From positions 1 through 41,954 of IMG/VR virus record IMGVR_UViG_3300030450_000681: DNA of 41,954 bases; one strand, written 5' to 3'. Below the pieces are notes generated by a model. That model was not told the DNA's origin. It was given only the letters and a program-made list of their open reading frames with translations, and ran no database searches. A program made the position numbers and the translations under genes. Source of the stretch: a virus. Below are positions 383 through 37,313 of the stretch, piece by piece; the stretch's first letter is position 1, and each line of letters begins with the position of its first letter.

Positions 383-396
383 TTGCATAGGTGCAG
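383..396 (+). promoter_or_regulatory. YTGCA-N4-TGCAG palindrome, site A
   Basis: TTGCATAGGTGCAG lies in the 72-base gap between the fibre gene and the membrane-protein gene at 433, 37 bases before its ATG. It is one of seven good copies of the same inverted repeat, each just upstream of a gene. It is a candidate promoter for the phage RNA polymerase or a 5' leader hairpin. Confidence 0.55.
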
Positions 397-432
397 AGAA
401 TAGCTAGGCTTATATAGCAAGGAAAAATTTTT

Positions 433-633
433 ATGAGAAAAATTATTGATGCTATATCAATAGCGTCTTTTGCTATCTCCCTAACTATGGCTATAGGAGG
501 TGGTTACATTTATATGAAAAGAGTGGATTTTATGAATCAAATGATGCTGACTCTTCAGGATCAAATGATTGATGTTATTCAAAATCAAATAAAAATGCCA
601 AAGGTAACAGGGCCAGCATTGCCATTTAAGTAA
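433..633 (+). CDS. Small single-pass membrane protein
   Basis: A 66-residue protein with one hydrophobic helix at about residues 5-28, ending in a GGGYIYMKR turn, then an amphipathic stretch (residues 34-55, rich in Met, Gln and Ile) and a proline-rich end. The start is supported by an AAGGA element about 9 bases upstream. It overlaps the next gene in a TAATG junction, so the two are translationally coupled. I recall small proteins of this form as conserved unknowns in marine cyanophages but cannot verify that here. Its position after the tail fibres, where T7 keeps its holin gene 17.5, makes a lysis or membrane role possible; no function is proven. Confidence 0.75.
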   Translation: MRKIIDAISIASFAISLTMAIGGGYIYMKRVDFMNQMMLTLQDQMIDVIQNQIKMPKVTGPALPFK

Positions 634-1190
634 TGATTCAATTCAAGTCATTTAACGGCCTAACTTCTTTAGTTCTGGGCGGTGGTTTGATCGCTACGAA
701 TTTTATGAGTCTTAATTTATTGGCTCGCAAAGATTCGGGCATACCTGATATATCAAAACTTTCCAGTACCCCCTACAGTTCAATTCAAATTAGGAGCGAA
801 GTTAAACCCGATGGTGCAGAGGAGTGGATGTTTAATTCTAAGCAACACGATCCAAAGCTAATAACAACAATCACAGATGAATCTCAACCTACATTTAATG
901 GAAAAGTTAAAGAGAAATATATTCATAAACAATCTGTGGCTCAGTTCATTACATACCCGCAAGGCTCAGACGGAAAACTTACAGATAAACAAATTGAATG
1001 TATTGAAAAAATGGCACAAGGTAGAAGTAATGGACAACTGATTGCGGATAGCGCAAGCGTCCAGGTGACACCAGCCATAGCCAGCGTTCCAATCGTAGGG
1101 CCAGTATTAGCAGGAATATTTTTTGGTCAGGCTAGGAAACAGGTGGGCAGCCTTGCAAGCGAGGCGGCTGGTCAATGGAATGATTGCTAA
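633..1190 (+). CDS. Membrane-associated protein of unknown function
   Basis: A 185-residue protein with an N-terminal hydrophobic segment (about residues 9-30, which could be a signal anchor), a charged central region and a second hydrophobic segment rich in Ala, Ile, Val, Pro and Gly near residues 146-167. Two cysteines (about 123 and 185) could form a disulfide if the middle is periplasmic. It starts within the stop of the previous gene, and the next gene begins directly after its own stop, so three genes form one tight operon. I do not recognise the family. The topology and context would fit a late membrane or lysis-associated protein. Confidence 0.7.
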   Translation: MIQFKSFNGLTSLVLGGGLIATNFMSLNLLARKDSGIPDISKLSSTPYSSIQIRSEVKPDGAEEWMFNSKQHDPKLITTITDESQPTFNGKVKEKYIHKQSVAQFITYPQGSDGKLTDKQIECIEKMAQGRSNGQLIADSASVQVTPAIASVPIVGPVLAGIFFGQARKQVGSLASEAAGQWNDC

Positions 1191-3810: not shown

Positions 3811-3824
3811 TTGCATCTATGCAG
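3811..3824. promoter_or_regulatory. YTGCA-N4-TGCAG palindrome, site B
   Basis: TTGCATCTATGCAG lies between the divergent starts of the minus-strand secreted-protein operon (ATG at 3800) and the small terminase gene (ATG at 3864). Being palindromic it could serve either direction; the plus reading matches the other copies best. Confidence 0.5.
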
Positions 3825-3863
3825 ACTTAGTTTAGTATCTAATTGTTAAGTAACAATCAAGTT

Positions 3864-4136
3864 ATGAAAAATGACGCTGAAAATTTAGCTGAACTTCAAA
3901 CTTTGACGATAGAAACAGTTATTGATCGTATAAAAAAAGGTAGTTACGACAAAGATGGAAACCCTCTTCCTGTATCAAATGATGACCTTAGATTAGCTGC
4001 TCAATTACTTAAGCAAAACAATATAACTGCCAACCTTGCAGAGGCAGATAACGAAAGATTAAAATCACAAATGGCTAAAAAATTAGATTTCTCTACAGTA
4101 AGGAAAAAGTTAGAGAATAATATTGCTAACGCCTGA
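3864..4136 (+). CDS. Terminase small subunit (T7 gp18-like)
   Basis: A 90-residue, mostly helical protein starting at ATG 3864; the frame extends to a TTG at 3843, but this adds no good start signal. The pattern ESx-type helix, short gap with Lys-Gly-Ser, then residues LRLAAQLLKQNNIT matches the signature seen in small terminase subunits of T7-like and other tailed phages, which recognise viral DNA and present it to the large subunit. The large terminase lies directly next to it but on the opposite strand, and the two genes end in an 11-base tail-to-tail overlap. Size and context fit well; the sequence signature is short, so confidence is moderate to good. Confidence 0.72.
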   Translation: MKNDAENLAELQTLTIETVIDRIKKGSYDKDGNPLPVSNDDLRLAAQLLKQNNITANLAEADNERLKSQMAKKLDFSTVRKKLENNIANA

Positions 4137-5940
4137 CACCACCGTAAGCACCTGAGCTTGGTTGTGGTTTAAATCCACATGCTAAATCATCTAAACTTGC
4201 ACCAGTTTCATCAAACCAAGCATCTCTAATTAAATCATCTAACTCTTCCTGACGTTCTCTTTTTTGTCTAACTTGATCTTGTGCAGCAGCTTCCGTAAAG
4301 AACTTAATTCCTAAACTAAGAGCATCAATTTTATCGTCGAATAACAAGCTCCCACGATCCGTCGTTATTCTGGACATTCCATAAAGCAAAGATCTTTGAT
4401 GGCCTGATTCTGGATCACGTTCAGCCGTTGCATAATCCTTTTTAATTACATCTGTGCTGACAACCATTCGATGTTGTTGAATTAACGGTGCGAGAGTATC
4501 AACAATACGTCTTTCCTTTTGGATGCTGACTCTAACTTCTTCTATTCCAACAGGATAAATTTTATTCATTACTGGCTGCAATAACGCTGTAAACATGCCA
4601 TCACCCATATTTGATTCAGCAACGACTTGAGTTACATTCCATTTTTTTGCAACTTTCGCTAATAGCTGTAAAACCTCAACTTCATATCCTCTAGTCGTAC
4701 CACCACTTTCTAAAACAAAGAAATTACCATTGAGTTCTGCTATGCAGGCCCAAGCTAATTCGTCGCTGCCTCGGCCGGAGGGGTCCACAGCGAGAACACA
4801 ACGCCACTCATCTTTCGTCGGTATCCACCCGTTAACAGCCGCAGGACGGTGGTAATAACGATCAGCACCCATTCCAACACAAATCAAATTCTGGATCCTT
4901 AGATCGGGGCTATTGCCCCATATAGCTATTTCAGGTAAAGCCTTCCCATCTAAATCCATCACAATCAAATCACTTAATCGGATTGGATAACGATCAAGAG
5001 TACTTAAACGACAATTCAACTGAAACTGCAATTGAACTGCTGATCTTGTCATCCTTGTTTCACGCTTTAGCAATTCCTCATGCCCAAAGCGTTCAGGATC
5101 AGTTGGGTTTCCAGCTACTTCTGGATTCTCTTCAACAGTCGATGCAATATCAGGTGCTAAAAATCCTTCATAACAATCCCATTGCTCAGAATCTTTTGGA
5201 TCAGGAAACCTCGCAGGCCAAAAACGAATAGCATAACTCCTCTCCCTCACTAGCTTTAGGTAAAGACTGGACTCCAAATGCGGAGTTCCTAGGTATCTAA
5301 TTTGCCTTGGAAAAATCTGTTTCTTTCCTCCCATCGTGTAATCCCTTTTGCCATTCGGATCAAACCCAGGATCATCTGGTTTAATGATTGCCTCTAATTC
5401 CGTTACCGCCTGCGCTAATCTTTCCTGCTTTAACGGTGTAATTGAATTATTTAAAGTCTCAATGTCATCAGGCAATGCCAAAGTACAACGCTTTCCAGTC
5501 AAACTTGGACTTAATATCCCAACTGTTCTAACACTTGGACTCTGATCAATAACAGCAGGCCCAACATCAAATGCTTTAAAACTTGATCTTCCATCTGGTC
5601 TTGGTTCTAAACATCTCAAAATATCAACATCCCTGATACATCTAGCCATAAATGTCGCTACCTCCTCTGCTTTCTCAGCAGTTGCAGCAGGAATCAAGAT
5701 CTTTTCAGTAAATGGATCATGCCTTAATCGCCACAAAGCATAAGCACCACTTTCAAATGATTTCCCCAAACCACGATACGCAGTTGTAATGCAACGATCT
5801 GGCCCATTCTCTAACCATTCCGCTACTGATAACTGCCTTAACGTCGGAGTATCAGCCAAACCCAATTCCCTTAACAAGTAACAAAGGAAATTTTTAAAAG
5901 GCCACAATTCTTCTGGTAATGGTTCCCAATTCATAAACAA
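4126..5940 (-). CDS. Terminase large subunit (T7 gp19-like DNA packaging ATPase-nuclease)
   Basis: A 604-residue motor protein that pumps DNA into the prohead and cuts concatemers. The ATPase domain shows Walker A as AYRGLGKS (residues 54-61) and Walker B as LALPDDIE (about 154-161). The nuclease domain shows VDPSGRGSDE (385-394, catalytic Asp386), AESNMGDGMF (441-450) and FDDKIDAL (534-541, acidic metal ligands). These match the T7 gp19 arrangement, and the length is close to the T7 protein. The gene is reversed relative to the small subunit and the virion genes. In T7 both lie on the same strand, so an inversion has occurred. Start chosen at ATG 5940; a second ATG two codons later is equally possible. 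Confidence 0.95.
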   Translation of the reverse strand: MFMNWEPLPEELWPFKNFLCYLLRELGLADTPTLRQLSVAEWLENGPDRCITTAYRGLGKSFESGAYALWRLRHDPFTEKILIPAATAEKAEEVATFMARCIRDVDILRCLEPRPDGRSSFKAFDVGPAVIDQSPSVRTVGILSPSLTGKRCTLALPDDIETLNNSITPLKQERLAQAVTELEAIIKPDDPGFDPNGKRDYTMGGKKQIFPRQIRYLGTPHLESSLYLKLVRERSYAIRFWPARFPDPKDSEQWDCYEGFLAPDIASTVEENPEVAGNPTDPERFGHEELLKRETRMTRSAVQLQFQLNCRLSTLDRYPIRLSDLIVMDLDGKALPEIAIWGNSPDLRIQNLICVGMGADRYYHRPAAVNGWIPTKDEWRCVLAVDPSGRGSDELAWACIAELNGNFFVLESGGTTRGYEVEVLQLLAKVAKKWNVTQVVAESNMGDGMFTALLQPVMNKIYPVGIEEVRVSIQKERRIVDTLAPLIQQHRMVVSTDVIKKDYATAERDPESGHQRSLLYGMSRITTDRGSLLFDDKIDALSLGIKFFTEAAAQDQVRQKRERQEELDDLIRDAWFDETGASLDDLACGFKPQPSSGAYGGVRR

Positions 5941-5975
5941 AGCCCCCCTATCTTTTTAGTGACAGAGAGGCTTTG

Positions 5976-5994
5976 CCAACAACCACCAACCAAA
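5976..5994 (+). promoter_or_regulatory. CA-rich leader element, copy before a plus-strand ATG
   Basis: The run CCAACAACCACCAACCAAA ends directly at an ATG (5995). Near-identical runs precede the starts of the ArdC gene, the 10976 gene and the integrase. Here it lies on the strand opposite to the annotated genes, which is why the plus-strand frame behind it deserves attention. Confidence 0.4.
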
Positions 5995-6189
5995 ATGGCT
6001 GGCAGGCTTTCCAGTACCACCTGGAATAGCATTTTCATTCTAACCCTCATCCACACTATCGTCCTCTTCCTCCTCTTTTACCTCTTCTTTAACTTCTTCA
6101 ACTTTTTTAGCAACAGTTCCGTCTTTTGCGGCCTTTGCTTTCTCATATTCAGCAACAGGTACATCACTCCCATATCTCTGAATACCTAA
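5995..6189 (+). CDS. Candidate antisense overlapping ORF, very hydrophobic (doubtful)
   Basis: A 64-residue frame starting at the ATG that follows the CA-rich leader. Residues about 11-35 and 37-55 are extremely rich in Phe, Leu and Ile, so if made the product would be a small two-segment membrane protein. It lies fully antisense to the acidic protein gene at 6040-6258, and the complement of a Glu/Lys/Val-rich gene naturally reads as Phe/Leu/Ser, so the hydrophobicity may be an artefact. The only positive evidence is the leader element that elsewhere precedes real genes. Confidence 0.22.
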   Translation: MAGRLSSTTWNSIFILTLIHTIVLFLLFYLFFNFFNFFSNSSVFCGLCFLIFSNRYITPISLNT

Positions 6190-6258
6190 CCTCATCCTTT
6201 CTTCATTTGATACATACATGGGTGCAATCCTTAGTTTCTGATACTCACTATATTTCAC
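6040..6258 (-). CDS. Small acidic-tailed protein, unknown function
   Basis: A 72-residue protein with an N-terminal half containing YSEYQKLRIAPMYVSNEERM and a C-terminal third made almost only of Glu, Lys, Val and Asp (residues 52-72), likely a charged helix. It overlaps the upstream winged-helix gene by 4 bases, so the two are coupled, and lies between that gene and the large terminase. Its 3' side carries a 6-base-pair hairpin (TTCCAG/CTGGAA, around 6009-6026). The family is not recognised; a packaging- or terminase-accessory role is possible from position only. Confidence 0.65.
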   Translation of the reverse strand: MKYSEYQKLRIAPMYVSNEERMRLGIQRYGSDVPVAEYEKAKAAKDGTVAKKVEEVKEEVKEEEEDDSVDEG

Positions 6259-6629
6259 AAATCGTTTATTGCCTCCTCAAATTGACTTTGTAAATATCCT
6301 CGCCTCTTTACTCCTCCCACACTCGCAAAATGTGGATTCAATAAAAAGTAAACATCCCCACTCCTTTTCTCCCTAACTCTTACAACTAACAACTCCTTCT
6401 TTAACCTTCCCAACGACATTACACATACAGAATCTTTTATGTTCAACTTCCTCGCCAATGCCCTGGCAGTTAACCTAACTCTCCCCGTCCTCCAGTTCAT
6501 TTCACTAATTAATCCCACATATACAGCCATATCCCTTAACTCCAATCTCCTCTCACTTATTAACCCAAATACATTCTCAAATTCTTCTTGGTGAAGCATA
6601 ACAAAATTCTCGAATCCATTAGACTGCAT
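6255..6629 (-). CDS. Winged-helix DNA-binding protein (RepL/regulator-like)
   Basis: A 124-residue protein. Residues about 30-45 form a helix, LTARALARKLNIKDS (53-67) and SLGRLKKELLVVRV (72-85) look like the two helices of a winged helix, and YFLLNPHFASVGG (94-106) matches the wing and the following tyrosine/Asn-Pro motif seen in RepL-like and related plasmid or phage winged-helix proteins. It is the first gene of the minus-strand block, transcribed away from the divergence region, with a sigma70-like promoter at 6722-6749. Position and fold fit an early regulator, possibly controlling lysogeny, or a DNA-terminus/origin-binding protein. Fold is likely, role is inferred. Confidence 0.68.
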   Translation of the reverse strand: MQSNGFENFVMLHQEEFENVFGLISERRLELRDMAVYVGLISEMNWRTGRVRLTARALARKLNIKDSVCVMSLGRLKKELLVVRVREKRSGDVYFLLNPHFASVGGVKRRGYLQSQFEEAINDL

Positions 6630-6675
6630 TAGTCAGACCTCCTTGCCTTCTGACAGTCCCCTAACCCTAGGGTCA

Positions 6676-6712
6676 CTCCTGATTGGTGTTTGCGAAACGG
6701 CCCAGTCAGGGG
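6676..6712. repeat. Stem-loop in regulator leader
   Basis: CCTGATTGG (6678-6686) pairs with CCAGTCAGG (6702-6710), with one G-T pair, and the loop contains a second small hairpin, GTTT-GCG-AAAC. Read on the minus strand it would begin only a few bases after the predicted start of transcription of the winged-helix gene. The arm CAGTCAGGGGA is also found in the terminator-like hairpin behind the capsid gene. Confidence 0.55.
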
Positions 6713-6721
6713 AGGGGATCT

Positions 6722-6749
6722 TATATATGTAAAGTGAATCATACATCAA
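6722..6749 (-). promoter_or_regulatory. Sigma70-like promoter for the minus-strand block
   Basis: On the minus strand TTGATG (6744-6749) and TATATA (6722-6727) are separated by 16 bases, a good match to bacterial -35 and -10 boxes. Transcription would start near 6714 and read through the stem-loop into the winged-helix gene. Confidence 0.5.
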
Positions 6750-6897
6750 CACACCTGCATTTCAACTGCTTTCACAATTACCTACTTCGACTTGCACTAT
6801 GATCTCTATACTGGTAACAATAAAAATGTAGGTTCGTCCCCACCTACTAACGCAGAATAAAACAATACAACTTAAACTCCTCACACACAAAAAATCT

Positions 6898-6935
6898 GAC
6901 TCAGGGTTCGCATAATTCCCTGGGTCTTTTTTTTT
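6898..6935. terminator. Bidirectional rho-independent terminator
   Basis: GACTCAGGG (6898-6906) and CCCTGGGTC (6918-6926) form a 9-bp stem with one G-T pair and an 11-base loop, followed by nine T on the plus strand. On the minus strand the stem is followed by AGATTTTTTG, so it can stop transcription from both sides. No annotated plus-strand gene ends just before it. Confidence 0.75.
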
Positions 6936-6990
6936 CATTTTTTACCTCGCATTTTTAGGTGGGTACCTCTACAGCGCTTGGCGCTCATAC

Positions 6991-7065
6991 CCCCATAGCC
7001 CCCTTTAAAAAATCATAGAAAAATAAAAAAAGATCAAAAGAATCAATAAAAAAATGGCTATGGGG
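6991..7065. repeat. Inverted repeat around AT-rich core, candidate origin
   Basis: CCCCATAGCC (6991-7000) and its exact complement GGCTATGGGG (7056-7065) enclose 55 bases that are almost entirely A and T after the first three C. The right arm runs on into GGGGTGGGGTGGGG. An AT-rich core between perfect arms within a divergence region resembles a replication origin or a DNA-unwinding element; it could also be the packaging terminus. Confidence 0.5.
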
Positions 7066-7236
7066 TGGGGTGGGGTATATCTATCTAGTGACTGATTGAA
7101 TTGACAGAAGATTAACAATCCGATGGGTGAAGGAAAGAATGATGTGAGGTGGTCAGGGTGAGGTGTGAAGGGGTGGAGAGAAGGTGAGAGAGAGTGATAA
7201 TTGTTGTAGATAGAGAGTTTGCCTTAATGCCTTCTA

Positions 7237-7265
7237 TTGCCATCTTTGAGACAATCTGCTATATA
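7237..7265 (+). promoter_or_regulatory. Early sigma70-type promoter
   Basis: TTGCCA (7237-7242) and TATATA (7260-7265) are separated by 17 bases, with TG one base before the -10 box (extended -10). This is the best host-type promoter seen in the window and lies directly before the early gene cluster, as expected for genes read by host polymerase before the phage polymerase is made. Confidence 0.65.
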
Positions 7266-7277
7266 TAAATAACTGCA

Positions 7278-7291
7278 ATACACCAATGCAG
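7278..7291 (+). promoter_or_regulatory. Weak copy of the TGCAG palindrome, site C
   Basis: ATACACCAATGCAG keeps the right arm; a full CTGCA left arm occurs at 7273-7277 but with a 9-base spacer instead of 4. It lies between the early promoter and the ArdC start. Degenerate, so it may not be functional. Confidence 0.25.
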
Positions 7292-7313
7292 AACAACAAC
7301 CACCAACAACCAA
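7292..7313 (+). promoter_or_regulatory. CA-rich leader before ArdC
   Basis: AACAACAACCACC followed by AACAACCAA, ten bases before the ATG at 7323. No Shine-Dalgarno sequence is present between it and the start. The same element precedes the genes at 10976 and 11320. Confidence 0.5.
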
Positions 7314-7322
7314 TTAAGTCTT

Positions 7323-8267
7323 ATGGCTACTAAAGAAAGAACTAAGAAGGCAGCAAAACCAACACCAGAAGAAAAGCTATGTGGGGAATTAATTGAGTTA
7401 ATGGAAAAGGGAAAGAATCCCTGGAGAAAAGAATGGTTAAGTAAGAATGACGGAAGGCATCAGAATTTAATTACAGGTAATTTTTACCATGGTGGAAATG
7501 TGGCATTGCTTGAGATGTACGCAATGGCAAGGGACTATGAAGAAGCCTTGTGGTTAGGTGCTAATCAGGGAATCAAGGCTGGTCTAAGAATTAAGAAAGG
7601 AAGTAAGGCTGTTTATATAACTAGACCACAGTTGAACGCTAAGGAAGTAGAAGACAAGAACGGAAAGCCAAAGCTAGACAATGATGGCAATCCTGTTATT
7701 GCTGCATGGACTAGTTATAAGGCTTGTGCAGTATTTCATGTTTCCTGCTTTGAAGGTGAAGGGTTAGAGGAAATGAAGAAGAAAGCACTAGGAGAAGAAC
7801 AAGTAAGGAATGAAGAGCCTAAGCGCTTAGAGGACTGCGAAAATGCTGCTAAGGCATATCACAAGCAAGAAGAGCTTGAGACTGTCTGGATTGGTTCTAG
7901 AGCGTGTTACAAGCCCTCTAGAGATCAGATCAACATACCTGAAAGAAGATTGTTTGATAACTCAGAAGCTTTATATGCAACTTGGTTTCATGAAATGGTT
8001 CATTCAACTGGACATGAATCAAGGCTTAATAGATTAAAGGCTGCAAGCTTTGGAAGTAGTGAATATGCAAAGGAGGAATTAGTCGCAGAACTTGGCGCTT
8101 TTCTTATATGTCATAGGTTGCAGATTAGTTCTAATACAACTAACCATGCTGCTTATTTAAACAGTTGGATTAGTTCACTTAGACAAGACCCTAAATATCT
8201 ATTTAAAGCACTAGGAAAGGCTACAAGCGCAGTAAATAGAATCTTAGGAAGTGAGGTTACTAAATAA
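7323..8267 (+). CDS. ardC: ArdC-like antirestriction protein with metallopeptidase domain
   Basis: A 314-residue protein of two domains. The N-terminal half (about residues 15-150) matches the ArdC N-terminal single-strand-DNA-binding domain, including NPWRKEW near 32-38, a gap, TGNFYHGGN (51-59) and a WTSYKACAVFHVSCF core (129-143). The C-terminal half is a zincin-type metallopeptidase with HEMVHSTGH (223-231) followed by EELVAELGA (251-259), supplying the usual His ligands and the extra Glu. ArdC proteins protect incoming DNA from host restriction. Being the first gene after the early promoter fits entry-phase defence. It lacks a Shine-Dalgarno element and instead follows a CA-rich leader. 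Confidence 0.88.
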   Translation: MATKERTKKAAKPTPEEKLCGELIELMEKGKNPWRKEWLSKNDGRHQNLITGNFYHGGNVALLEMYAMARDYEEALWLGANQGIKAGLRIKKGSKAVYITRPQLNAKEVEDKNGKPKLDNDGNPVIAAWTSYKACAVFHVSCFEGEGLEEMKKKALGEEQVRNEEPKRLEDCENAAKAYHKQEELETVWIGSRACYKPSRDQINIPERRLFDNSEALYATWFHEMVHSTGHESRLNRLKAASFGSSEYAKEELVAELGAFLICHRLQISSNTTNHAAYLNSWISSLRQDPKYLFKALGKATSAVNRILGSEVTK

Positions 8268-8358
8268 TAATTAATCTATCCCTGAAGCCTTCTTAAATAG
8301 TGGGCTTCATGGATGGCTTAAATGTCATCTATTAAACAACCATCAACCGAGGTAAATT

Positions 8359-8538
8359 ATGCCTATCAACCATGATGATGAATTTCATGCACCTATTAAT
8401 TATGGGAATCGTTTCCCTGAAGATTGGTCTTTTAATGATCTTGACGATGATCTAGTAGAAATTGAAGTTCATTGTGGGGAATATATTCCTGACTCAAATG
8501 AATTAATGGCTGATTCTTTAGAAGTAGGAGGCCTTTAA
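8359..8538 (+). CDS. Very acidic 59-residue early protein, possible DNA mimic
   Basis: A short gene with 16 Asp/Glu and one Arg among 59 residues, ending in a block DLVEIEVHCGEY (about 31-42) shared with the next gene. The start follows ACCGAGGTAAATT, a plausible binding site behind a short CA-rich run, and the gene ends two bases before the next ATG, with AGGAGG in its last codons serving that gene. Highly acidic tiny proteins next to an antirestriction gene recall DNA mimics such as T7 Ocr; no sequence similarity to Ocr is claimed. Function unknown. Confidence 0.6.
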   Translation: MPINHDDEFHAPINYGNRFPEDWSFNDLDDDLVEIEVHCGEYIPDSNELMADSLEVGGL

Positions 8539-8539
8539 A

Positions 8540-8755
8540 ATGCCTAATGAATTAAACAAAAATGGTGAATACTATCAAGGCTATTTAATGCCTGAAAAGT
8601 TCTCAAGATGGCTAGATTCTTGCCCTCTTAACTGGCAAATGGTCAGCATTGGAAAGGATAGAGGAACTTATATGTTTTTTGTTGAAGATGATTTAGACAA
8701 AGACTTAGTAGAGATGAAAGTTAACTGTGGTGAATATGTAGAGAATGATAAATAA
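8540..8755 (+). CDS. Small early protein, paralogue of the preceding gene
   Basis: A 71-residue protein whose C-terminal part, DLDKDLVEMKVNCGEY (about 51-66), closely repeats the end of the upstream acidic protein, so the two probably arose by duplication. It has a strong ribosome binding site (AGGAGG, about 9 bases upstream). The N-terminal part, with Trp24 and Trp32 and the sequence YMFFVEDD, is unlike the neighbour. Part of the early operon; function unknown. Confidence 0.65.
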   Translation: MPNELNKNGEYYQGYLMPEKFSRWLDSCPLNWQMVSIGKDRGTYMFFVEDDLDKDLVEMKVNCGEYVENDK

Positions 8756-8926
8756 ATGGTACATCATCCAATACAAAATGTTTATTATCCAATTAGAACT
8801 AATTGGGTTAATAAAATAAATAACACTACTAAAGAAAAGATTTATCTAGCTCAAAAGAGAATAGATGAACTCACTAAACTTATTAACTATTGGAAAACAA
8901 ACAATGTTAAAAACAATGCCAATTAA
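8756..8926 (+). CDS. Small protein, unknown function
   Basis: A 56-residue frame starting directly at the stop of the previous gene (TAA then ATG). It has an aromatic N-terminus (HHPIQNVYYPIRTNW) and then a helical stretch KIYLAQKRIDELTKLINYWK at residues 26-45 with a coiled-coil-like spacing of hydrophobic residues. No own ribosome binding site beyond coupling. Its end overlaps the next gene in another frame. Family not recognised. Confidence 0.5.
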   Translation: MVHHPIQNVYYPIRTNWVNKINNTTKEKIYLAQKRIDELTKLINYWKTNNVKNNAN

Positions 8927-9152
8927 GTCTACCAAAAAAATCATTTGCAAGCATGGAAATTGCAACGTAATTGAACTATTTAAACCAGTTCATAGGTACT
9001 CTCGTTGCGGCTCTAGTGGCAAATTATTGAAATGTCCAAATTGTGAATCAACTAAACTTGTTTTTAATTTGGCATGGCCTTCTCTTACATGTCAGTCATG
9101 CAAATTATCTATTGATAAGTATGACTACATGATTGAAAACGAGGTTGATTAA
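8904..9152 (+). CDS. Small zinc-ribbon-like protein
   Basis: Contains paired cysteines: Cys-Lys-His-Gly-Asn-Cys, then Cys-Gly, then CPNC, then Cys-Gln-Ser-Cys near the C-terminus, consistent with one or two zinc ribbons and nucleic-acid or protein binding. The frame is open from an ATG at 8865, but that would overlap the upstream gene by 62 bases; ATG 8904 is chosen and ATG 8916 is also possible. None of them has a clear ribosome binding site. Role unknown; early expression is likely from position. Confidence 0.55.
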   Translation: MLKTMPIKSTKKIICKHGNCNVIELFKPVHRYSRCGSSGKLLKCPNCESTKLVFNLAWPSLTCQSCKLSIDKYDYMIENEVD

Positions 9153-9156
9153 AACA

Positions 9157-9294
9157 ATGAAAAACAATCAACTTAGGATAGAAGAAATTAACTTACCTGA
9201 TCCTGATAAAGCCGCTATTTATGCGGCTCAGGAGGACGCATGGTTTCATCATCTAACTGACCAATTCCCAGAACCATTAAAGGAGGAAAACTAA
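9157..9294 (+). CDS. Short acidic protein, unknown function
   Basis: A 45-residue frame with an acidic composition and the central segment LPDPDKAAIYAAQEDAWFHH. It starts 5 bases after the preceding stop and ends in a TAATG overlap with the next gene, with the AAAGGAGG that serves that gene inside its last codons. Regular tiling inside the operon supports it as real. Not recognised. Confidence 0.5.
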   Translation: MKNNQLRIEEINLPDPDKAAIYAAQEDAWFHHLTDQFPEPLKEEN

Positions 9295-9587
9295 TGTCAT
9301 TCAAACCAACTGAACAAGCTGATCCTGCACAATTTAAAAACATGCAGGACTTTAATAAAGCTTTTAAAAAAAGAGAAGATGCTTTTTTTGCTATGAAAAA
9401 TGCTCTTGAATCTTATGAGGTTGATGATGATTTTTCAAAAGCAATGTCAAAAGCTCAAATATTAGTTGATCTTGCAAAAAACATATTAGATAAACATGAA
9501 ATTGTGTTTGATTCTGTAGAGGAAATTTATACTACAGAACAGAAACTAAGAGATTTAGATCAAAGCTTTAAAAAGGAGGTCAAATGA
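9294..9587 (+). CDS. Helical early protein, unknown function
   Basis: A 97-residue, charged, mostly helical protein with heptad-like spacing of hydrophobic residues (about 18-65). It has a strong ribosome binding site (AAGGAGG, 6 bases before the ATG). It overlaps the previous gene by one base and the next by four. Likely a small early protein; it has no catalytic motif. Confidence 0.65.
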   Translation: MSFKPTEQADPAQFKNMQDFNKAFKKREDAFFAMKNALESYEVDDDFSKAMSKAQILVDLAKNILDKHEIVFDSVEEIYTTEQKLRDLDQSFKKEVK

Positions 9588-9868
9588 CTAAAGATAAAAT
9601 AGATTTTGATGATCTTGGTTACGAGTTAGCGAGGGCTAGGCAACTATCTCAAGGGGATAGATTAAATGTCATGGAATCATTAGCTACTTTTGCACAAAGG
9701 CTGGGTAGCTTAACGAAAGAAATAAAGACAGTGTTTAAATTAATTCATCAATTAAAAGAGAATCAGGAAACGATAGCGAAAGCGCTTAATCATGTCTTGA
9801 TTCATGCTGAAAATAAAGAGTTGTGGATTGAAATTTCTAAGGAGGAGGAAGATGAACAGAGTCTTTAA
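9584..9868 (+). CDS. Helical early protein, unknown function
   Basis: A 94-residue protein, almost all helix, with a central segment LGSLTKEIKTVFKLIHQLKE (about 44-63) that could form a coiled coil and an acidic C-terminal tail (SKEEEDEQSL). AAGGAGG precedes the ATG. Coupled to genes on both sides by short overlaps. Not recognised. Confidence 0.65.
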   Translation: MTKDKIDFDDLGYELARARQLSQGDRLNVMESLATFAQRLGSLTKEIKTVFKLIHQLKENQETIAKALNHVLIHAENKELWIEISKEEEDEQSL

Positions 9869-10004
9869 ATCTGACGCTGAAATTGATCTCAATAGGTGTG
9901 CAAATGCCTTAGAAAAGCTGGTTAAATTAATGGAATCCAGTCAAAAACGAGGTCTAGCAACGAAACCTAAAAGCAAACCAAAAGCAAAGGAGGTTAAAAA
10001 ATGA
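9852..10004 (+). CDS. Small basic protein, unknown function
   Basis: A 50-residue protein with an N-terminal helix and a Lys/Pro-rich basic tail (KPKSKPKAKEVKK), suggesting contact with nucleic acid or an acidic partner. The start at ATG 9852 is chosen because AAGGAGGAGG lies directly upstream; the frame is open further left but without a start signal. It overlaps the previous gene by 17 bases and the next by four. Confidence 0.6.
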   Translation: MNRVFKSDAEIDLNRCANALEKLVKLMESSQKRGLATKPKSKPKAKEVKK

Positions 10005-10348
10005 TTGATACTCACAAGTTTGCAATGTTTTTAAGTGAGTTTCGCAAGAGTAGTAGGCAAATTTCTACTACACAGGTGGAGGCGTTCTTATTGGTTGCTT
10101 CAGGTGTTGACAACGTGAGCGATTTACAACAAGCAATGTTTCTTAATGATGGAAGTCCATTTCCTAGATCAAGTGCTGGTCGAATTGTTAATTACTTAAG
10201 TGGTAGAGGCCGTTACTCAGAAGGGAAGTGGATTAATCAAGGAGGTGAGCCATTGATTAAAAGAAGAGAACATCCACATAAACAAGGCTATCAATTGATA
10301 CTTACTGATGTAGGAAAAGAGCTAATTGGCAATTATTTGTGTAACTAG
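10001..10348 (+). CDS. Winged-helix DNA-binding protein (MarR-like)
   Basis: A 115-residue protein: a helix with VEAFLLVASG (about 26-35), a second helix with SDLQQAMFLNDG, the probable recognition helix SSAGRIVNYLSGRGRY (57-72) and a wing GYQLILTDVGKEL (96-108) ending in the MarR-like TDVGKEL motif. It has a strong AGGAGG site. It is the last gene of the first early operon. MarR-like proteins bind palindromic operators as dimers; candidate targets lie immediately downstream at 10394 and 10609. Role in phage or lysogeny control is inferred. Confidence 0.68.
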   Translation: MIDTHKFAMFLSEFRKSSRQISTTQVEAFLLVASGVDNVSDLQQAMFLNDGSPFPRSSAGRIVNYLSGRGRYSEGKWINQGGEPLIKRREHPHKQGYQLILTDVGKELIGNYLCN

Positions 10349-10358
10349 ATACAGTAGT

Positions 10359-10372
10359 ATGTACATGTGCAG
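10359..10372 (+). promoter_or_regulatory. YTGCA-N4-TGCAG palindrome, site D
   Basis: ATGTACATGTGCAG, with one mismatch in the left arm, lies in the gap between the two winged-helix genes. It is followed by ATGCATTG, which adds a further half site. Confidence 0.45.
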
Positions 10373-10393
10373 ATGCATTGTAATAACGTTCTT

Positions 10394-10413
10394 GTCTCCT
10401 AGTGATAGGCGAC
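10394..10413. promoter_or_regulatory. Candidate operator 1
   Basis: GTCTCCTAGTGATAGGCGAC is a 20-base inverted repeat with one mismatched pair. Its core, CTCCTA-N4-TAGGMG, recurs at 10609 and 15094. A symmetric site upstream of a winged-helix gene fits an autoregulatory operator. Confidence 0.5.
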
Positions 10414-10608
10414 GCACTTAGGAATAAACGAACTTCGCAAACAACTGAATGTCAACAGAGCTTTTATTGAGCGTTACCATACCTCTTGAAAGTGGCTACA
10501 AAGAGTTTAATCTCTTCGCCTCATATGGTTTTCAAAAAGTTTTCAAAAAATTAAGCAATGGACACAAGGAACAAAAGCAGGTTAAATTTGATCTGCAAAG
10601 CTGCATAT

Positions 10609-10624
10609 CTCCTAGGGGTAGGAG
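10609..10624. promoter_or_regulatory. Candidate operator 2
   Basis: CTCCTAGGGGTAGGAG is a perfect 6-bp inverted repeat with a 4-base spacer, 12 bases before the start of the MarR-like gene. It contains the AGGAGG that would act as the ribosome binding site, so a bound repressor or an RNA hairpin here could also affect translation. Confidence 0.55.
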
Positions 10625-10636
10625 GCACTACAACGG

Positions 10637-10954
10637 ATGGATTTATTTGAACTGGAGAAGGGTCTTGAAGCCTTTGCCACTATTAATCCAACAGGGATGC
10701 CACTTCATCACGTCCAGGTATTTATCTTTGTTTGTCAGAACGAGGGATGCACCTATTCAGAGATAGAAGAGGCGTTAAACCTGACTAATTCAACAGTGAG
10801 CAGAACTATTAATGCTTTAGGCGAAATTCATAGAAAAGGATATAAAGGCTTTGAATTATTAGAGGTTCAACCTGACCCAGAAGAAGGCCGACGCTTTTGT
10901 GTTTGGCTAAAACCTAAAGGCAAAGCATTAAAACGCCAGCTAGACAAAATTTAA
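10637..10954 (+). CDS. MarR-like winged-helix regulator
   Basis: A 105-residue protein. Residues 23-35 form a helix (PLHHVQVFIFVCQ), TYSEIEEALNLTNSTVSRTI (39-58) is a clear helix-turn-helix with the recognition helix at 49-62, and EGRRFCVWLKPKGKALKRQL (83-102) is the wing and the last helix, as in MarR proteins. Small MarR-like regulators occur in T7-like marine phages. Two copies of a palindromic site flank its upstream region, pointing to autoregulation. It lies two genes before the integrase, consistent with control of lysogeny. AGGAGG is 12 bases upstream, a little long. Fold confident, role inferred. Confidence 0.75.
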   Translation: MDLFELEKGLEAFATINPTGMPLHHVQVFIFVCQNEGCTYSEIEEALNLTNSTVSRTINALGEIHRKGYKGFELLEVQPDPEEGRRFCVWLKPKGKALKRQLDKI

Positions 10955-10975
10955 ACAACAACCACCCAAACCATT
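10954..10975 (+). promoter_or_regulatory. CA-rich leader before gene 10976
   Basis: AACAACAACCACCCAAACC directly precedes the ATG after ATT. There is no Shine-Dalgarno sequence in the 22-base gap. Confidence 0.5.
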
Positions 10976-11293
10976 ATGGACACCAGAATTGATTTCATTC
11001 GTGAAAGATGCCCACAGTTAGAAAAACTATGGGAAAAATACGAGAAGTATCACCGACAGTTCAATACGTTTAGTGCGTCTTCCAATTATTTTGATTTTTG
11101 CGTTGATGATCCTTTTATTAAAGATACAGAAGAAGTTATTTTTGAATGCTATGAAGAAGGGGTAAAAATTATTTATCTTTTCGATGAAAAATTTAGAGAA
11201 GATCATTCAATGACGCATGAAGAGTGCCTTAAGTACTTAGATCAATTACCAAAAGCCTGGTACAACTGCACTAAGAACGAGTCTTACAAGTAA
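10976..11293 (+). CDS. Unknown protein upstream of integrase
   Basis: A 105-residue acidic protein with many aromatic residues (Tyr and Phe in NYFDFCVDDPFIKDTEEVIF, about 37-56) and four cysteines. No known motif. It lies between the MarR-like gene and the integrase, with CA-rich leaders on both sides, and is probably co-transcribed with the integrase. A role as excisionase is possible from position, but it is longer and more acidic than usual for that role. Confidence 0.62.
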   Translation: MDTRIDFIRERCPQLEKLWEKYEKYHRQFNTFSASSNYFDFCVDDPFIKDTEEVIFECYEEGVKIIYLFDEKFREDHSMTHEECLKYLDQLPKAWYNCTKNESYK

Positions 11294-11319
11294 ACAACAA
11301 CCACCAACCAAACTGAATC
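11293..11319 (+). promoter_or_regulatory. CA-rich leader before integrase
   Basis: AACAACAACCACCAACCAAA followed by CTGAATC and the integrase ATG at 11320. No Shine-Dalgarno sequence. It is the most complete copy of the leader element. Confidence 0.55.
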
Positions 11320-12413: not shown

Positions 12414-12461
12414 AAGTGGTTTTTACAATCCTATAACCCTAGGTGAAACTTGCCCACAATC

Positions 12462-12665: not shown

Positions 12666-15083
12666 GTGGAAAAGGAGGTAAAAAAGGAGGAATACGACGC
12701 AAACTTTCCATCCACTGAAACCATTTCGCTTCAGAAAAAACGTGAGGCCAGGGAGAAAGAAAATGCTAAATGGAAAGCAATTAATGACCGAGCAAAATTA
12801 AAAGCTCAGGGCAATGAAAGTGTTACTGAGTATGGAAGAGTTTTATTTAATGAGAACGCTGAAAAAATATCAATTGGCTTAGGAATATTATTAGAAGATC
12901 TTCTAGAAAATCCACATAAACCTGGGCCACATTTTGCTGCATGGCCTTTGCTTTTACATGTAACAAATAGAGGGCCAAGAACTATATCTTCAATTGCTTT
13001 AAGTGTGGTGCTAGACACCATTAGCGGTAGACCTTATGAAAATGATTTAGCTAAAGGGATAGGCCGAGCATTAGAGGATGAGTTAAGAGCAGGAAAAATA
13101 GAGAAAATGAACCCTCACTTGATGCGTTTAATCAAGAAAAAGAAGGGGCCAAAAGCTTTAAGTAACAAAAGAATATTGCAGCAGCTACGGATTGAGGATG
13201 AACGTTGGACAACAATTCAGCAGAAAGAGGTCGGAGGTTTATTACTTCAGGTCATTGTTGCTCATACAAATCTGATTGAGATCTTGCCTTTAAGTAACAA
13301 GGGAAAGATCAAAACGATTGTTGATGCAACAGAAGCAACGCAGGAAATTATCAAAAGGAACCCACCAAGACCAACACCAATAAGAAGGCTGCCTTTATTA
13401 ATCAAGCCTGAACCTTGTTGGAGAATGTATAGACCACTAGATAATAAACCTTTCATCAGGTCAAAGAATGACATTAGTTACATCACCAATGAAGATTTAA
13501 AGGTAATTAAAAAGCCAGTCCATCACCTAGAGGGACAAGCGCTAGAAATCGACAAAAGGATGGTGGATGATATGAGAACTGCGTGGGACTGCAATATTCG
13601 TGGGTTATTTCCAGTCCAACGTGACCCCAAAGAAGAGCCTGTACCACCAACAGAACACATAGGATCAGAGGCATATAAAAATTATGTAAAAGAGAGATGG
13701 GCAGCACAAAAAGATCGCAACAATGGTGCAGGGATTAGAAATAAAATTGAACAAGACATAAGGGAATTAGAAGAGGTCGCAGGACGTACTGTTTACAACC
13801 AATATTTCGCAGATCAAAGAGGAAGAATCTACACATTGAATAAACTTGCAACACATCAAGGGCCAGATTGGTCTAAGGCTTGTATTAATTTTGCTAAGGG
13901 TAAACGCTGTAGTGAAGAGGGCTTTTCGTGGTTATTAAAGGCAGCAGCAGGACACTATGGAATCAATGATATTTGGCTAGGACGATATGTATGGGGGGAA
14001 GAACATCTTAAAGAGATGTGTGCGGTAGCTGAAGCGCCGTTAGACCATCTTGAGTTATGGAGAGATGCAAAAGATAAGTGGCAATATCTACAACTGTGCA
14101 GGGCTATTAAAGAACAGATCGACAATCCAAATAGTATTTCTAAATGTCCAATCAGATTAGATCAATGCTGTAGTGGCGTTGGAATCTCAAGCATGTTGAC
14201 TGGAGATCATAGATTGGCGACTTGGACAAATTGTATTGGTGATAGAAAAAGCGATTTATATCAAGTCATTGCTGATCAAGTTCATTTAGCAGTTGCTAAA
14301 GATCTACAGACCAGCCCAACAAATAAAAAACATGCAGAACTTTGGCTTGATTATGGAATAGATAGATCGTTAATGAAACTTCCTTGTATGACTGCGATTT
14401 ATGGGGCGCAATACTTGGGATTAGTAGATTATTTAGTTATGAAATTAGAAGAGAAAGCACCAGACAAAATGGTTTATGACTGGCAACATCATTACCTTTC
14501 TCCTGCTGGTTACTTGGCTAAAAAAATAAAACTGTCATTAGATCTTAATTTAGGAACAAGTTTCGACTTGGACAGGTGGTTAAAGTTAGTTGCTAAACAA
14601 CTTTTAGAACAGAACAGGAAGATTAAATGGACATCTCCTATTGGCTGGCCTATTGAATTAGGTGATGAGATTGACCAAAGAAAGAGCGTTCACTCGTTAA
14701 CAAGAGGCAAAAGGAAATGGACACCTTGGAACGAATACGAAAATAAAGATCTTTTCTCTGCTCGTATTACTAGGCGCTCAATTATGGCGAACACCATCAC
14801 TAGCTTTGATGCTGCGATATGCCTCAAAGTAGTCTCCACATGTAGAGAATTAAATATGCAAATCCTTACAAATCATGACTGTTTTGCAACCATCCCAACT
14901 GACGCTGAGATGTTACATAAGATGCTTTTGAAACAGCTTAATGATACATTTCAAACGCACTGGCTAAAAAGAATGAGGAAAGAAATGTTGATTAATACTG
15001 GGGTTAAGAGTATTCCATACCCACCAGTACAGAAAACCATTTCGTGTCTAAGACCTGGAGAGAACCCATACGCTTATTCCTAG
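12666..15083 (+). CDS. Phage single-subunit DNA-directed RNA polymerase (T7 gp1-like)
   Basis: An 805-residue T7-type RNA polymerase, somewhat shorter than T7 gp1 (883). Visible motifs: GRALEDELRAGKI in the N-terminal domain, DQRGRIY (from Asp383), DQCCSG with the first catalytic Asp499, KLPCMTAIYGAQ with Lys571 and Tyr579 in the same 8-residue spacing as T7 Lys631 and Tyr639, and HDCFATIP with the second catalytic Asp738. All catalytic residues are present. It transcribes middle and late genes from its own promoters; the repeated palindrome described here is a candidate. Start is GTG directly after the upstream stop; strong AGGAGG runs lie inside the first codons, but no later start is near. 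Confidence 0.96.
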   Translation: MEKEVKKEEYDANFPSTETISLQKKREAREKENAKWKAINDRAKLKAQGNESVTEYGRVLFNENAEKISIGLGILLEDLLENPHKPGPHFAAWPLLLHVTNRGPRTISSIALSVVLDTISGRPYENDLAKGIGRALEDELRAGKIEKMNPHLMRLIKKKKGPKALSNKRILQQLRIEDERWTTIQQKEVGGLLLQVIVAHTNLIEILPLSNKGKIKTIVDATEATQEIIKRNPPRPTPIRRLPLLIKPEPCWRMYRPLDNKPFIRSKNDISYITNEDLKVIKKPVHHLEGQALEIDKRMVDDMRTAWDCNIRGLFPVQRDPKEEPVPPTEHIGSEAYKNYVKERWAAQKDRNNGAGIRNKIEQDIRELEEVAGRTVYNQYFADQRGRIYTLNKLATHQGPDWSKACINFAKGKRCSEEGFSWLLKAAAGHYGINDIWLGRYVWGEEHLKEMCAVAEAPLDHLELWRDAKDKWQYLQLCRAIKEQIDNPNSISKCPIRLDQCCSGVGISSMLTGDHRLATWTNCIGDRKSDLYQVIADQVHLAVAKDLQTSPTNKKHAELWLDYGIDRSLMKLPCMTAIYGAQYLGLVDYLVMKLEEKAPDKMVYDWQHHYLSPAGYLAKKIKLSLDLNLGTSFDLDRWLKLVAKQLLEQNRKIKWTSPIGWPIELGDEIDQRKSVHSLTRGKRKWTPWNEYENKDLFSARITRRSIMANTITSFDAAICLKVVSTCRELNMQILTNHDCFATIPTDAEMLHKMLLKQLNDTFQTHWLKRMRKEMLINTGVKSIPYPPVQKTISCLRPGENPYAYS

Positions 15084-15093
15084 GGGCTTGCGT

Positions 15094-15109: not shown

Positions 15110-15124
15110 TTATGGTTAGAACCT

Positions 15125-15138
15125 CTGCATACATACAT
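15125..15138 (+). promoter_or_regulatory. Weak half copy of the TGCAG palindrome, site E
   Basis: CTGCATACATACAT keeps the left arm (CTGCA) but not the right. It stands 5 bases before the SSB ATG, as other copies stand close before starts. Low confidence as a functional site. Confidence 0.25.
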
Positions 15139-15143
15139 AACAG

Positions 15144-17552: not shown

Positions 17553-17553
17553 T

Positions 17554-18307: not shown

Positions 18308-18321
18308 CTGCATAGTTGCAG
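18308..18321 (+). promoter_or_regulatory. YTGCA-N4-TGCAG palindrome, site F
   Basis: CTGCATAGTTGCAG lies directly after the exonuclease stop and directly before a GTG start at 18322, at the change from replication to virion genes. The flank TGTT before CTGCA is shared with site G at the capsid gene. Confidence 0.6.
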
Positions 18322-22341: not shown

Positions 22342-22366
22342 CGCTATTATTTTTATATGAGTTGTT

Positions 22367-22380
22367 CTGCACTTGTGCAG
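22367..22380 (+). promoter_or_regulatory. YTGCA-N4-TGCAG palindrome, site G
   Basis: CTGCACTTGTGCAG is a perfect 5-bp inverted repeat in the gap before the capsid gene, 76 bases upstream of its ATG. In T7 the strongest phage promoter (phi10) lies at this place. Confidence 0.65.
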
Positions 22381-22455
22381 TTGATTAAGCCTCTTGCGGG
22401 AGATAACTTAATTAAACAAACAAAGAAAGACACTCACCTATAAAAAAATAGTCCA

Positions 22456-23463: not shown

Positions 23464-23487
23464 TTTATTACTGGGAGGGAGTTAATT

Positions 23488-23519
23488 TCCCCTGATTTTG
23501 TTCAGTCAGGGGACTTTCT
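23488..23519 (+). terminator. Terminator-like hairpin after the capsid gene
   Basis: TCCCCTGA (23488-23495) and TCAGGGGA (23506-23513) form a perfect 8-bp stem with a 10-base loop, followed by CTTTCTT, a weak T-rich run. It would reduce, not fully block, transcription past the capsid gene, as T7 Tphi does. Confidence 0.6.
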
Positions 23520-23530
23520 TACGAATAACC

Positions 23531-23557
23531 GATAAGATAAAGATTGCATGTGTGCAG
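23531..23557 (+). promoter_or_regulatory. YTGCA-N4-TGCAG palindrome with upstream extension, site H
   Basis: GATAAGATAAAG followed by ATTGCATGTGTGCAG is identical at 24 of 27 positions to the sequence before the tail-fibre gene (37287-37313). The palindrome (23544-23557) ends 9 bases before the ATG of the tail tube gene. With its flanks it forms a 10-bp hairpin (AAAGATTGCA/TGCAGTCTTT) and a following T run, so it could also act as a terminator. Confidence 0.65.
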
Positions 23558-23566
23558 TCTTTTTTT

Positions 23567-36900: not shown

Positions 36901-37257
36901 GGTGATATTGATAAGTATGTGCAGGGTAGGAATTTAATTGATGCGTTAAGAAAATTAAGCACAGATTTTGAATATAACCAAAGACTTAATCAGGCATACA
37001 CTCCAAGCTTGACCGCCCCAAATAATAAAAACAAAACACTAGGAGGAAGAACACAAGGCATTGGTAATGAAATATCAAAAGAGATTTACGAACCCTATAA
37101 CGCAATTGTTAGTTACTACGACAAGCTTGGAATCTTACACATGTATAACAATTCACCAAGTTTTAAAAAGAGGTATGACGCAATGATTGATGAACGTGAT
37201 AGGAAGATTCAATTGTTTATTGAGCAAGAAACCTCGCTAGGAGTAGGCCGTCAATAA
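33955..37257 (+). CDS. Large internal virion protein 2, gp16 region
   Basis: An 1100-residue protein with a coiled-coil N-terminus (about 5-45), a long helical region and segments such as WAIRNPASTAVSFAYGMTD (about 343-361) and TIVATGFMGASYALWQMGIL (about 683-702), the latter hydrophobic enough for membrane contact. The block NPASTAV...GMTDIVEGAL and LPVWRVLSNGFIWGLKADFH are of the type seen in very large core proteins of podoviruses. Together with the preceding gene it takes the place of the single T7 gp16 (1318 residues). Role in ejection by position; no enzyme motif found. Confidence 0.73.
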   Translation: MTDCNNINNNLDAIDAEIKRLEALEAKELAELQSIKSKGTTKGVKRTLKDFEGNDMTINSKDYWEQVEKDNIARGGDDIQNLVKEGFTKDIKPKGSTGSMINYGQIPPTEKNLAGLLEVLGLKRTQTEKGVELMRPFTQQAASQAAISLAKTEGGNPVALGKMLKNKLRGIDQLPVNVYTAARLRRETSMAYADALDEIAELIQIGGVTPQKMGEVANIGKWAHFFEQIDAQARRKLGQAFKSLQFNDGSESIRMLDLEKDIAALTWDDVSGGSLLAQVAEHIAKGDVQKLKELARAKRLGGLLDAPVNRPEFWAEFHIMNQYRKDGLFSAIGSWAIRNPASTAVSFAYGMTDIVEGALRVGIKDELKAFGMGARAVLDAQSQAFMNARDAFFQGQARMGGRNVKEISPEILSENKAFVEGSFDKSYHLVFGENGLNPFKGKAGIHTKAIALNNLMSASWRKVLGDVVEKQAAKRGIENVSTGYLPSFRALNAFDEWLRTTSFAWKTKHEAALRSLDEGNELVRNGILDAKDLDQFVIQNSEELTENAVFNGKMSDDDLIKLRREIGVPLGENMDNPTLRLKMFNDLNGVPNLNDEFGKLGKERTDDVTFTKQRKDPFNVGISIARQQPAVEFMLPVWRVLSNGFIWGLKADFHANLIKLGIDEIRAKGGDITPAVLRQQRANTIVATGFMGASYALWQMGILKGGLSFNKEERDRRITNKEKPYSINGFELSSSVKGVDFMDMMFLNIDVLQAHHEGLIDTPNLSEWLMKIGAAYKTALTNKAGMYQIINFGNLLNSETQRMDAAKFFAQSSNGLFPLGPSGILGNFSRGFRDPNEQVVLRRFPSAEELRAMETDELYIMLAPVINGLQQFAEQSNKNVPVMNQIFKAPTINRDWKWQKVERPLGLPVDQATPFMPIKRPKDPLYDWEALHGFGMKPRPNYQVAGITMLNDEEYMYREHMGTVVAEQPAYNVIGPKSQTIMGDIDKYVQGRNLIDALRKLSTDFEYNQRLNQAYTPSLTAPNNKNKTLGGRTQGIGNEISKEIYEPYNAIVSYYDKLGILHMYNNSPSFKKRYDAMIDERDRKIQLFIEQETSLGVGRQ

Positions 37258-37286
37258 CAATAAACGTGCCATTAAGCCTGAAATCG

Positions 37287-37313
37287 GATAACATAAAGAC
37301 TGCATCTGTGCAG
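37287..37313 (+). promoter_or_regulatory. YTGCA-N4-TGCAG palindrome with upstream extension, site I
   Basis: GATAACATAAAG followed by ACTGCATCTGTGCAG; 24 of 27 positions match the element before the tail tube gene (23531-23557). The palindrome CTGCATCTGTGCAG (37300-37313) is perfect in its 5-bp arms and ends 4 bases before the GTG of the tail fibre gene. The conservation of the upstream 12 bases argues for a promoter and not only a hairpin. Confidence 0.7.

Follow-up and report, generated by a model that had tools for sequence, protein, structure and literature searches.

The window analysed here, the 41,954-bp virus record IMGVR_UViG_3300030450_000681, encodes T7-like (Autographiviridae) protein families, and one sequence family, the 14-bp palindrome YTGCA-N4-TGCAG, recurs in it upstream of the middle and late gene blocks. 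In relatives of this phage the positions of the sites are kept while their sequence turns over between lineages. We consider it probable that the copies of the palindrome form the promoter family read by the single-subunit RNA polymerase (RNAP) that the phage encodes, and that this holds lineage-wide; judged by position, the dyad appears to work like a T7-family promoter. A first-pass annotation of the same DNA had proposed such a family, with seven good copies and weaker ones at 7278 and 15125. The family was confirmed and six of the good copies are exact, but that at 10359 carries two mismatches; the other two are weak as described, also with two mismatches each. The exact copies and then the weak ones are listed below.

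383..396, plus strand: exact dyad TTGCATAGGTGCAG, 36 nt before the open reading frame (ORF) at 433-633; relative G012 has a like site.
3811..3824, no strand assigned: exact dyad TTGCATCTATGCAG, 10 nt before the minus-strand gene ending at 3800 and 18 nt before the plus-strand ORF at 3843.
18308..18321, plus strand: exact dyad CTGCATAGTTGCAG, placed between the exonuclease gene and ORF 18322-18507, whose GTG it abuts, a position like that of T7 phi6.5.
22367..22380, plus strand: exact dyad CTGCACTTGTGCAG, 75 nt before the major capsid gene, a position like that of T7 phi10.
23544..23557, plus strand: exact dyad TTGCATGTGTGCAG, lying 30 nt downstream of a terminator-like hairpin and 7 nt short of the tail tube A start at 23565.
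37300..37313, plus strand: exact dyad CTGCATCTGTGCAG, 4 nt before the tail fibre start, GTG 37318, a position like that of T7 phi17.
10359..10372, plus strand: weak copy ATGTACATGTGCAG, 76 nt before ORF 10449, with TGCAG kept in at least four close relatives.
7278..7291, plus strand: weak copy ATACACCAATGCAG, before an ArdC-like gene, with TGCAG kept in G001 and G002 among the matches listed.
15125..15138, plus strand: weak copy CTGCATACATACAT, just before the SSB gene (15144), a position like that of T7 phi2.5.

Sites like the 3811 dyad were also found in G001, G002 and G012. Two of the contexts given earlier had to be revised. The copy at 18308, ascribed to late tail genes, follows the exonuclease gene and abuts a GTG-started ORF of 61 aa (18322), and that at 3811, ascribed to a terminase operon, lies between divergent genes (3800 on the minus strand, 3843/3864 on the plus strand), with terL at 4126-5940 on the minus strand.

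Exact strand matches to YTGCA-N4-TGCAG numbered 9 in the window, compared with a mean of 0.36 and a largest count of 4 in shuffled sequence, and none of 100 shuffles reached 9. The looser TGCA-N4-TGCA was found 9 times where 1.43 were expected, with copies within ORFs at 10593, 12254 and 37610. All six of the six exact copies lie in non-coding DNA, which makes up 5.7% of the window (binomial 3.6e-8), a share computed after two start codons had been moved by homology. The dyad at 23544 counts as non-coding because the tail tube A start was taken, by homology, to be the ATG at 23565; a mechanically called ORF that begins at TTG 23498 spans it. The earlier impression that the large coding genes read closely contain no strong copy is borne out, and an equal motif density within genes, named at that time as contrary evidence, was not what the scan of the window found.

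The palindrome was also prominent when upstream regions were compared with each other. Among 17 such regions, hand-chosen and mainly from late genes, the best four ungapped shared stretches were the dyad plus its flanks, in the pairs tail tube/tail fibre (GATAASATAAAGAYTGCATSTGTGCAG), post-exonuclease/capsid, 3811/tail tube and 383/3811, and the dyad made up 9 of the 16 pairs listed (18 were found). An automatic comparison of greedy intergenic stretches, taken to its best 14 pairs at most, placed the 18308/22367 pair at the top and an CAACAACCACCAAC leader of early genes next. Because these pairs did not include the 23544 site, the hand-chosen regions were compared as well. An CAACAACCACC leader stands shortly before several early genes (5977, 7294, 10956 and 11295, with a variant near 8335) and occurs in relatives as well. 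The following features adjoin the late dyads.

23531..23543, plus strand: upstream element GATAAGATAAAGA, common to the tail fibre site.
37287..37299, plus strand: upstream element GATAACATAAAGA of the tail fibre site.
23488..23513, plus strand: hairpin resembling an intrinsic terminator, between the capsid gene and the 23544 dyad.
22381..22415, plus strand: capsid leader hairpin downstream of the dyad, with similar sequence in relatives; z is 0.25 for a 101-nt stretch, alone not significant.

Extending the motif search to relatives, as had been suggested, showed that the element recurs at homologous places. A pattern-based scan of IMG/VR gave six close polymerase relatives (86-90% identical), and polymerase relatives overall were 31-90% identical. 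In 22 related records, which are not independent of each other, YTGCANNNNTGCAR had 91 forward matches and its reversed control 0; 3 of the 22 records had no match, and part of the matches lie within genes, for example a recurrent one in an acetyltransferase gene of freshwater relatives. Positions were surveyed with a set search range per gene, keeping loci that scored at least 7 of 10 and dropping matches that started after residue 25; gene models in loci without annotation were greedy longest-ORF calls. Of 85 loci scored for capsid, 81 have the element 72-76 nt ahead of the gene start; it stood 4-8 nt before the tail tube A start in 31 of 31, and -1 to 2 nt from the end of the exonuclease gene in 46 of 46. 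Synechococcus phage S-SRP02 carries exact dyads too, one of them 75 nt ahead of its capsid gene. Before SSB it was found at 5 or 8 nt in 28 of 33 scored loci, although it is weak there (18 of the 33 score just 7), and before the tail fibre, where it is weaker in relatives, 20 loci were scored. A set of 67 distinct sites, spanning five gene classes and including some loci outside the TGCA clade, was conserved at T10 (65), C4 (64), A5 (63), A13 (62), G11 (61) and T2 (61), looser at positions 3 (G 55, C 8) and 12 (C 49, G 9), and variable in N4. When records were scanned for pairs of five-letter halves with gaps of 0-12, a register of the TGCA element ranked first in eleven (the window itself, designated WIN, and G001, G002, G006, G011, G012, G014, G017, G018, SRP02 and S38C3), and one of the TACA form in G016 and G015.

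For tail tube A, 238 loci yielded 111 distinct sites, of which 46 were left after near-identical ones had been removed and 40 were kept; the six dropped for low score were L292, L195, L092, L258, L093 and L262, and L292 and L195 end in CGTAG/CGTAA. The 40 deduplicated sites are asymmetric, the gene-proximal YGYAR being fixed and the left half loose: proximal G(-3) and A(-1) were each present in 40/40, and distal T(-12), opposite the fixed A, in 18/40. A TA..AT element lies 5' of the core at these sites. This asymmetry is seen across relatives, while in the window's lineage the sites are nearly symmetric, and it suggests that the tail-tube sites may be a directional element. Other sequences were found in some of the distant relatives, in which the TGCA form is scarce. 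S37C6 carries CTACR-N4-YGTAG before the tail fibre, tail tube and SSB genes (5 places; reversed control 0), and G016 carries TTACA-N4-TGTAA-like sites, many of them intergenic (control 1). Such relatives seem to have a changed element of the same 5-4-5 size at the same places.

The proposed reader of the dyad is the following gene product.

12666..15083, plus strand: single-subunit phage RNA polymerase (PHROG 414, E 3.8e-103).

That this polymerase is the cognate reader, that it binds the dyad, and the start site and strength of the resulting promoter are what we infer. Made early, the enzyme would bind the 14-bp element ahead of the SSB, capsid, tail tube and tail fibre genes, the post-exonuclease block and the small operons at the flanks. 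Transcription would begin at the gene-proximal half (TGCAG) or a few bases from it, so that several genes would have leaders of 0-8 nt and the capsid gene one of ∼75 nt. The tail tube A and tail fibre sites carry a further TA..AT element on the 5' side of the core. The two halves would have become the 5-4-5 dyad in the lineage of the window, and at tail tube A of distant relatives the proximal half is fixed and the distal one looser.

Several observations weigh against a polymerase promoter. A promoter read by a monomer would not be expected to be a dyad. In the set of 40 tail-tube sites, covariation was seen at pair 3-12 (28 Watson-Crick pairs vs 18.2 after shuffling, p 0.000 in 2000 shuffles) and weakly at pair 5-10 (p 0.019), in shuffles that ignore kinship; in the 67-site set, drawn from five gene classes, no pair exceeded its shuffles. 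Matrix selection accounts for part of the T(-12)/A(-1) contrast and inflates it, and in the 67 sites it is the distal half that is better kept at the outermost position (position 1 C 61, position 14 G 49). De novo motif discovery by expectation-maximization on upstream regions returned weak, uninformative motifs, and the element was not recovered among those listed, which argues against an easy motif. The half-site scan did not rank the element top in G004, G005, G007, G008, G009, G010, G013 or S31C1, and ranked it second in S37C6; in G013 both TGCA-type places scored lie within ORFs. S31C1 has CNACR-N4-YGTAR at gene starts, but this loose pattern gave 5 strand matches vs 6 for the reversed control and is no commoner than it, so the S31C1 sites are assigned by position only. 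Among the matches listed, the regions ahead of MarR or RNAP in relatives hold related sequences. In G016, exact TACA-form dyads precede the RNAP gene and also stand ∼200 nt upstream of the MarR gene, an arrangement that suits a regulator too. The earlier proposal of a phage-polymerase promoter family is supported in part, by the T7-like positions and conserved places of the sites, but their dyad symmetry, with covariation at two of the five pair positions, fits a dimeric regulator equally well.

The dyad might accordingly be the operator of a phage-coded dimeric regulator, a possibility that we regard as real but doubtful. The most likely candidates are two proteins of MarR type.

10637..10954, plus strand: MarR-family regulator, before the integrase gene (PF12802, 29.9 bits vs a cut-off of 27).
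6255..6629, minus strand: possible second MarR-like protein (PF12802, E 0.022, below cut-off).

Such a regulator would repress or activate phage promoters over or beside the dyad, in lysis/lysogeny or timing control. It would suit a near-perfect palindrome whose half-sites lie 9 bp apart, centre to centre, as well as the covariation of pairs 3-12 and 5-10 across lineages, and a MarR-family protein above the PF12802 cut-off is encoded by the phage. A MarR_2 match was found in 19 of the 22 related records at E<=1, with 8 over cut-off and a second weak match in several relatives; G016 has its dyads ahead of both RNAP and MarR, and CTGCAAAGCTGCAT lies 30 nt before the ATG of the window's MarR gene. 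The part of MarR that we take, from the fold, to be its recognition helix differs between the TGCA and TACA clades, but the polymerase differs too. Since both proteins change with phylogeny, clade differences cannot assign the site's reader, and they failed as a discriminator. Nor did a complete relative lacking MarR come to light: the three that gave no match (G027, G028 and G030) are 29.6-35.3 kb long and possibly fragments. As a further reader, an NrdR-like protein (16162-16728) was set aside, its Zn-ribbon domain alone matching above its cut-off.

In the window, it is where the sites lie that speaks for the polymerase promoter over an operator. Its exact copies stand at late, structural and flanking operons. 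None falls in 3825-18307, the stretch that holds the MarR, integrase and polymerase genes and has only CTGCAAAGCTGCAT and the weak copies. Phages HTVC019P and HTVC021P also have a regulator beside the integrase, yet they carry an asymmetric T7-like motif at the same positions. Moreover, a promoter must exist upstream of the window's late genes, and the 17 chosen regions held no other comparably shared sequence. An unlikely further arrangement is that the dyad is read twice, as a polymerase promoter and as a site for a MarR-type dimer, so that one repressor would silence the whole late programme, and late messages would start at the palindrome with little or no leader. This double reading would explain both the palindromic promoter of a monomeric polymerase and half-sites that change together between lineages. 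In addition to the dyads, CCTAGG palindromes were noted at 6666, 10611, 12438, 15079 and 15102, and also at 5288, 21871 and 37662; several stand before MarR and SSB and are kept in relatives, and they may be a second operator family.

The same symmetry could mean that late mRNAs begin with an RNA hairpin that acts in stability, processing or translation. The six window copies keep five pairs, with an outer pair that is C-G or U-G on the plus strand, and a strong hairpin was predicted at 23540-23570 (-9.1 kcal/mol, z -3.57). We nevertheless judge a hairpin very unlikely. In the 67 sites, where covariation did not exceed that of shuffles, all five pairs are kept in just 29 and the halves change independently; compensatory changes do not run throughout the stem but are in excess at two of the five pair positions, in the 40-site set only. 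Of those tail-tube sites, 13/40 have all five pairs, and pair 2-13 is unpaired in 22/40. At the capsid and tail fibre genes, two of the five stretches folded in context, the dyad hairpin was not the predicted fold. A role for the dyad as a terminator stem was rejected as not general, because T runs follow only 23539-23562 (plus strand) and 37313-37300 (minus strand) in the two stretches scanned.

We give scarcely any credence to host sigma-70 promoters that would have the palindrome at or just after their start site. TANNAT-like hexamers do occur 5' of the tail tube and tail fibre dyads, but none of the eight sigma-70-like sites in the two scanned stretches fell at the four late dyads covered, and such sites numbered 6 in 17500-24500, where 14.3 were expected. 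The dyads at 383 and 3811, which lie outside the sigma-70 scan, have no hexamer at the same spacing.

Besides the polymerase, the Autographiviridae-type families encoded in the window include SSB, exonuclease, portal, capsid, tail tubes and terminase. The top-listed polymerase match among 50,697 phage records was that of Synechococcus phage S-SRP02 (44%), and these records held no near DNA match for the window's first 25 kb, the part searched. The host is presumably a cyanobacterium, because of the polymerase relatives. No DNA polymerase was found among the window ORFs scanned, which were part of all ORFs; cyanopodoviruses without a DNA polymerase gene exist, according to the accessible part of one report (PMC9860041).

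Other sequences were noted in the window and its relatives. Upstream of RNAP in freshwater relatives (e.g., G005 and G009) a long inverted repeat, TTCCACCCCTGCAGAG...TCTGCACAGGTGGGGTGGAA, ends at the polymerase start; it is weaker in the window, near 12580-12679, where the GTG start lies within the GGTGGAA arm. A tRNA-Leu(taa) gene (12327-12414, minus strand) adjoins the end of the integrase gene and is possibly an attachment site. The window's capsid gene is uninterrupted, but in three loci the major capsid gene is interrupted by a group I intron (Rfam RF00028; L068:7483-7709, L060:2731-2957 and L073:519-735), and L058, L059, L072 and L074 have a like extra stretch of ∼250 nt in the capsid match. 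Inside the tail fibre gene, at window positions 37659-38261, direct repeats are spaced at multiples of 21 nt. P-SSP7 (L138) has a repeated intergenic AACYTATCCACT motif at 1814, 5974 and 40308, which we take to be DnaA-box-like.

If the dyad is a polymerase promoter, it provides a concrete promoter sequence, and possibly an operator, for a T7-like cyanophage lineage known here almost wholly from metagenomes. From it one can predict how the late genes divide into separate units, and several of their messages would be almost without a leader. The relatives would form a natural series of polymerase-promoter pairs in which specificity may have changed with the sites in place.

No description of this motif was found in the accessible parts of the literature searched, which included few subscription journals, and the words 'promoter', 'palindrom' and 'motif' do not occur in the text of the S-SRP02 genome paper. 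Two of the nearest known systems are from phages that encode MarR. According to the accessible part of the P-SSP7 work (PMC9692554), pMarR is a dimeric winged helix-turn-helix protein said to bind palindromic repeats. The window's phage group likewise encodes a MarR homologue, but the window's exact dyads are away from early and immunity genes, and no consensus operator was found in that part of the paper. LUZ100, as described in the available portion of its report (PMC10134795), is a temperate-like T7 relative with MarR and integrase, as here, and its phage-specific promoters, with a 17-bp, partly T7-like motif, precede the polymerase, SSB and capsid genes; this motif was set beside the window's dyad by description, not letter by letter. 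The same portion cites a hypothesis (Boeckman 2022) that MarR binds sites flanking the phage-polymerase promoter, which is a point in favour of an operator.

The Syn5 polymerase promoter is, in the accessible part of its description (PMC3950665), a 15-bp element ending ...CGTAA directly before +1, and starts at or just after the gene-proximal half of the window's dyad are suggested by analogy with that portion. The element here is similarly short, and the gene-proximal half in relatives has a similar ...CGTAR end, but the Syn5 sequence differs from that of the window. With up to three mismatches the Syn5 element occurs twice in the Syn5 genome (4929 and 44797) and not before capsid or tail genes; lacking late-gene copies there, the link to Syn5 is one of resemblance only. 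The annotation's remark that no T7-type consensus matches holds as far as seen, and this ...CGTAA/+1 end is the nearest known piece.

The T7 record has phi2.5 before SSB, phi6.5 after the exonuclease block, phi10 before capsid and phi17 before the tail fibre, with leaders of 11-13 nt at phi1.5, 1.6, 4.3 and 4.7; the terminator Tphi follows capsid, and no phage promoter stands before tail tube A. The window resembles T7 in its sites after the exonuclease gene and before capsid, tail fibre and SSB (there a weak copy), in a terminator after capsid and in a phage-coded single-subunit polymerase. It is unlike T7 in that no match to the T7 promoter sequence was seen, the core is a dyad-symmetric 14 bp and an extra copy stands before tail tube A. 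T7-like promoter candidates like AGTAAAGTTTCACTTTTAG were noted in Pelagibacter phages HTVC019P (L139; 7343, 17068 and 31032) and HTVC021P (L140; 17729, 31922 and 42668). Among its best nine pairs in each case, the same intergenic comparison recovers the T7 promoters, an asymmetric, T7-like ...CACTWTTAG motif before SSB and the tail fibre in HTVC019P, and the same motif before the tail fibre in HTVC021P. Since the method recovers both, the places compared are promoter positions, and they carry polymerase promoters in T7 and probably in HTVC019P and HTVC021P.

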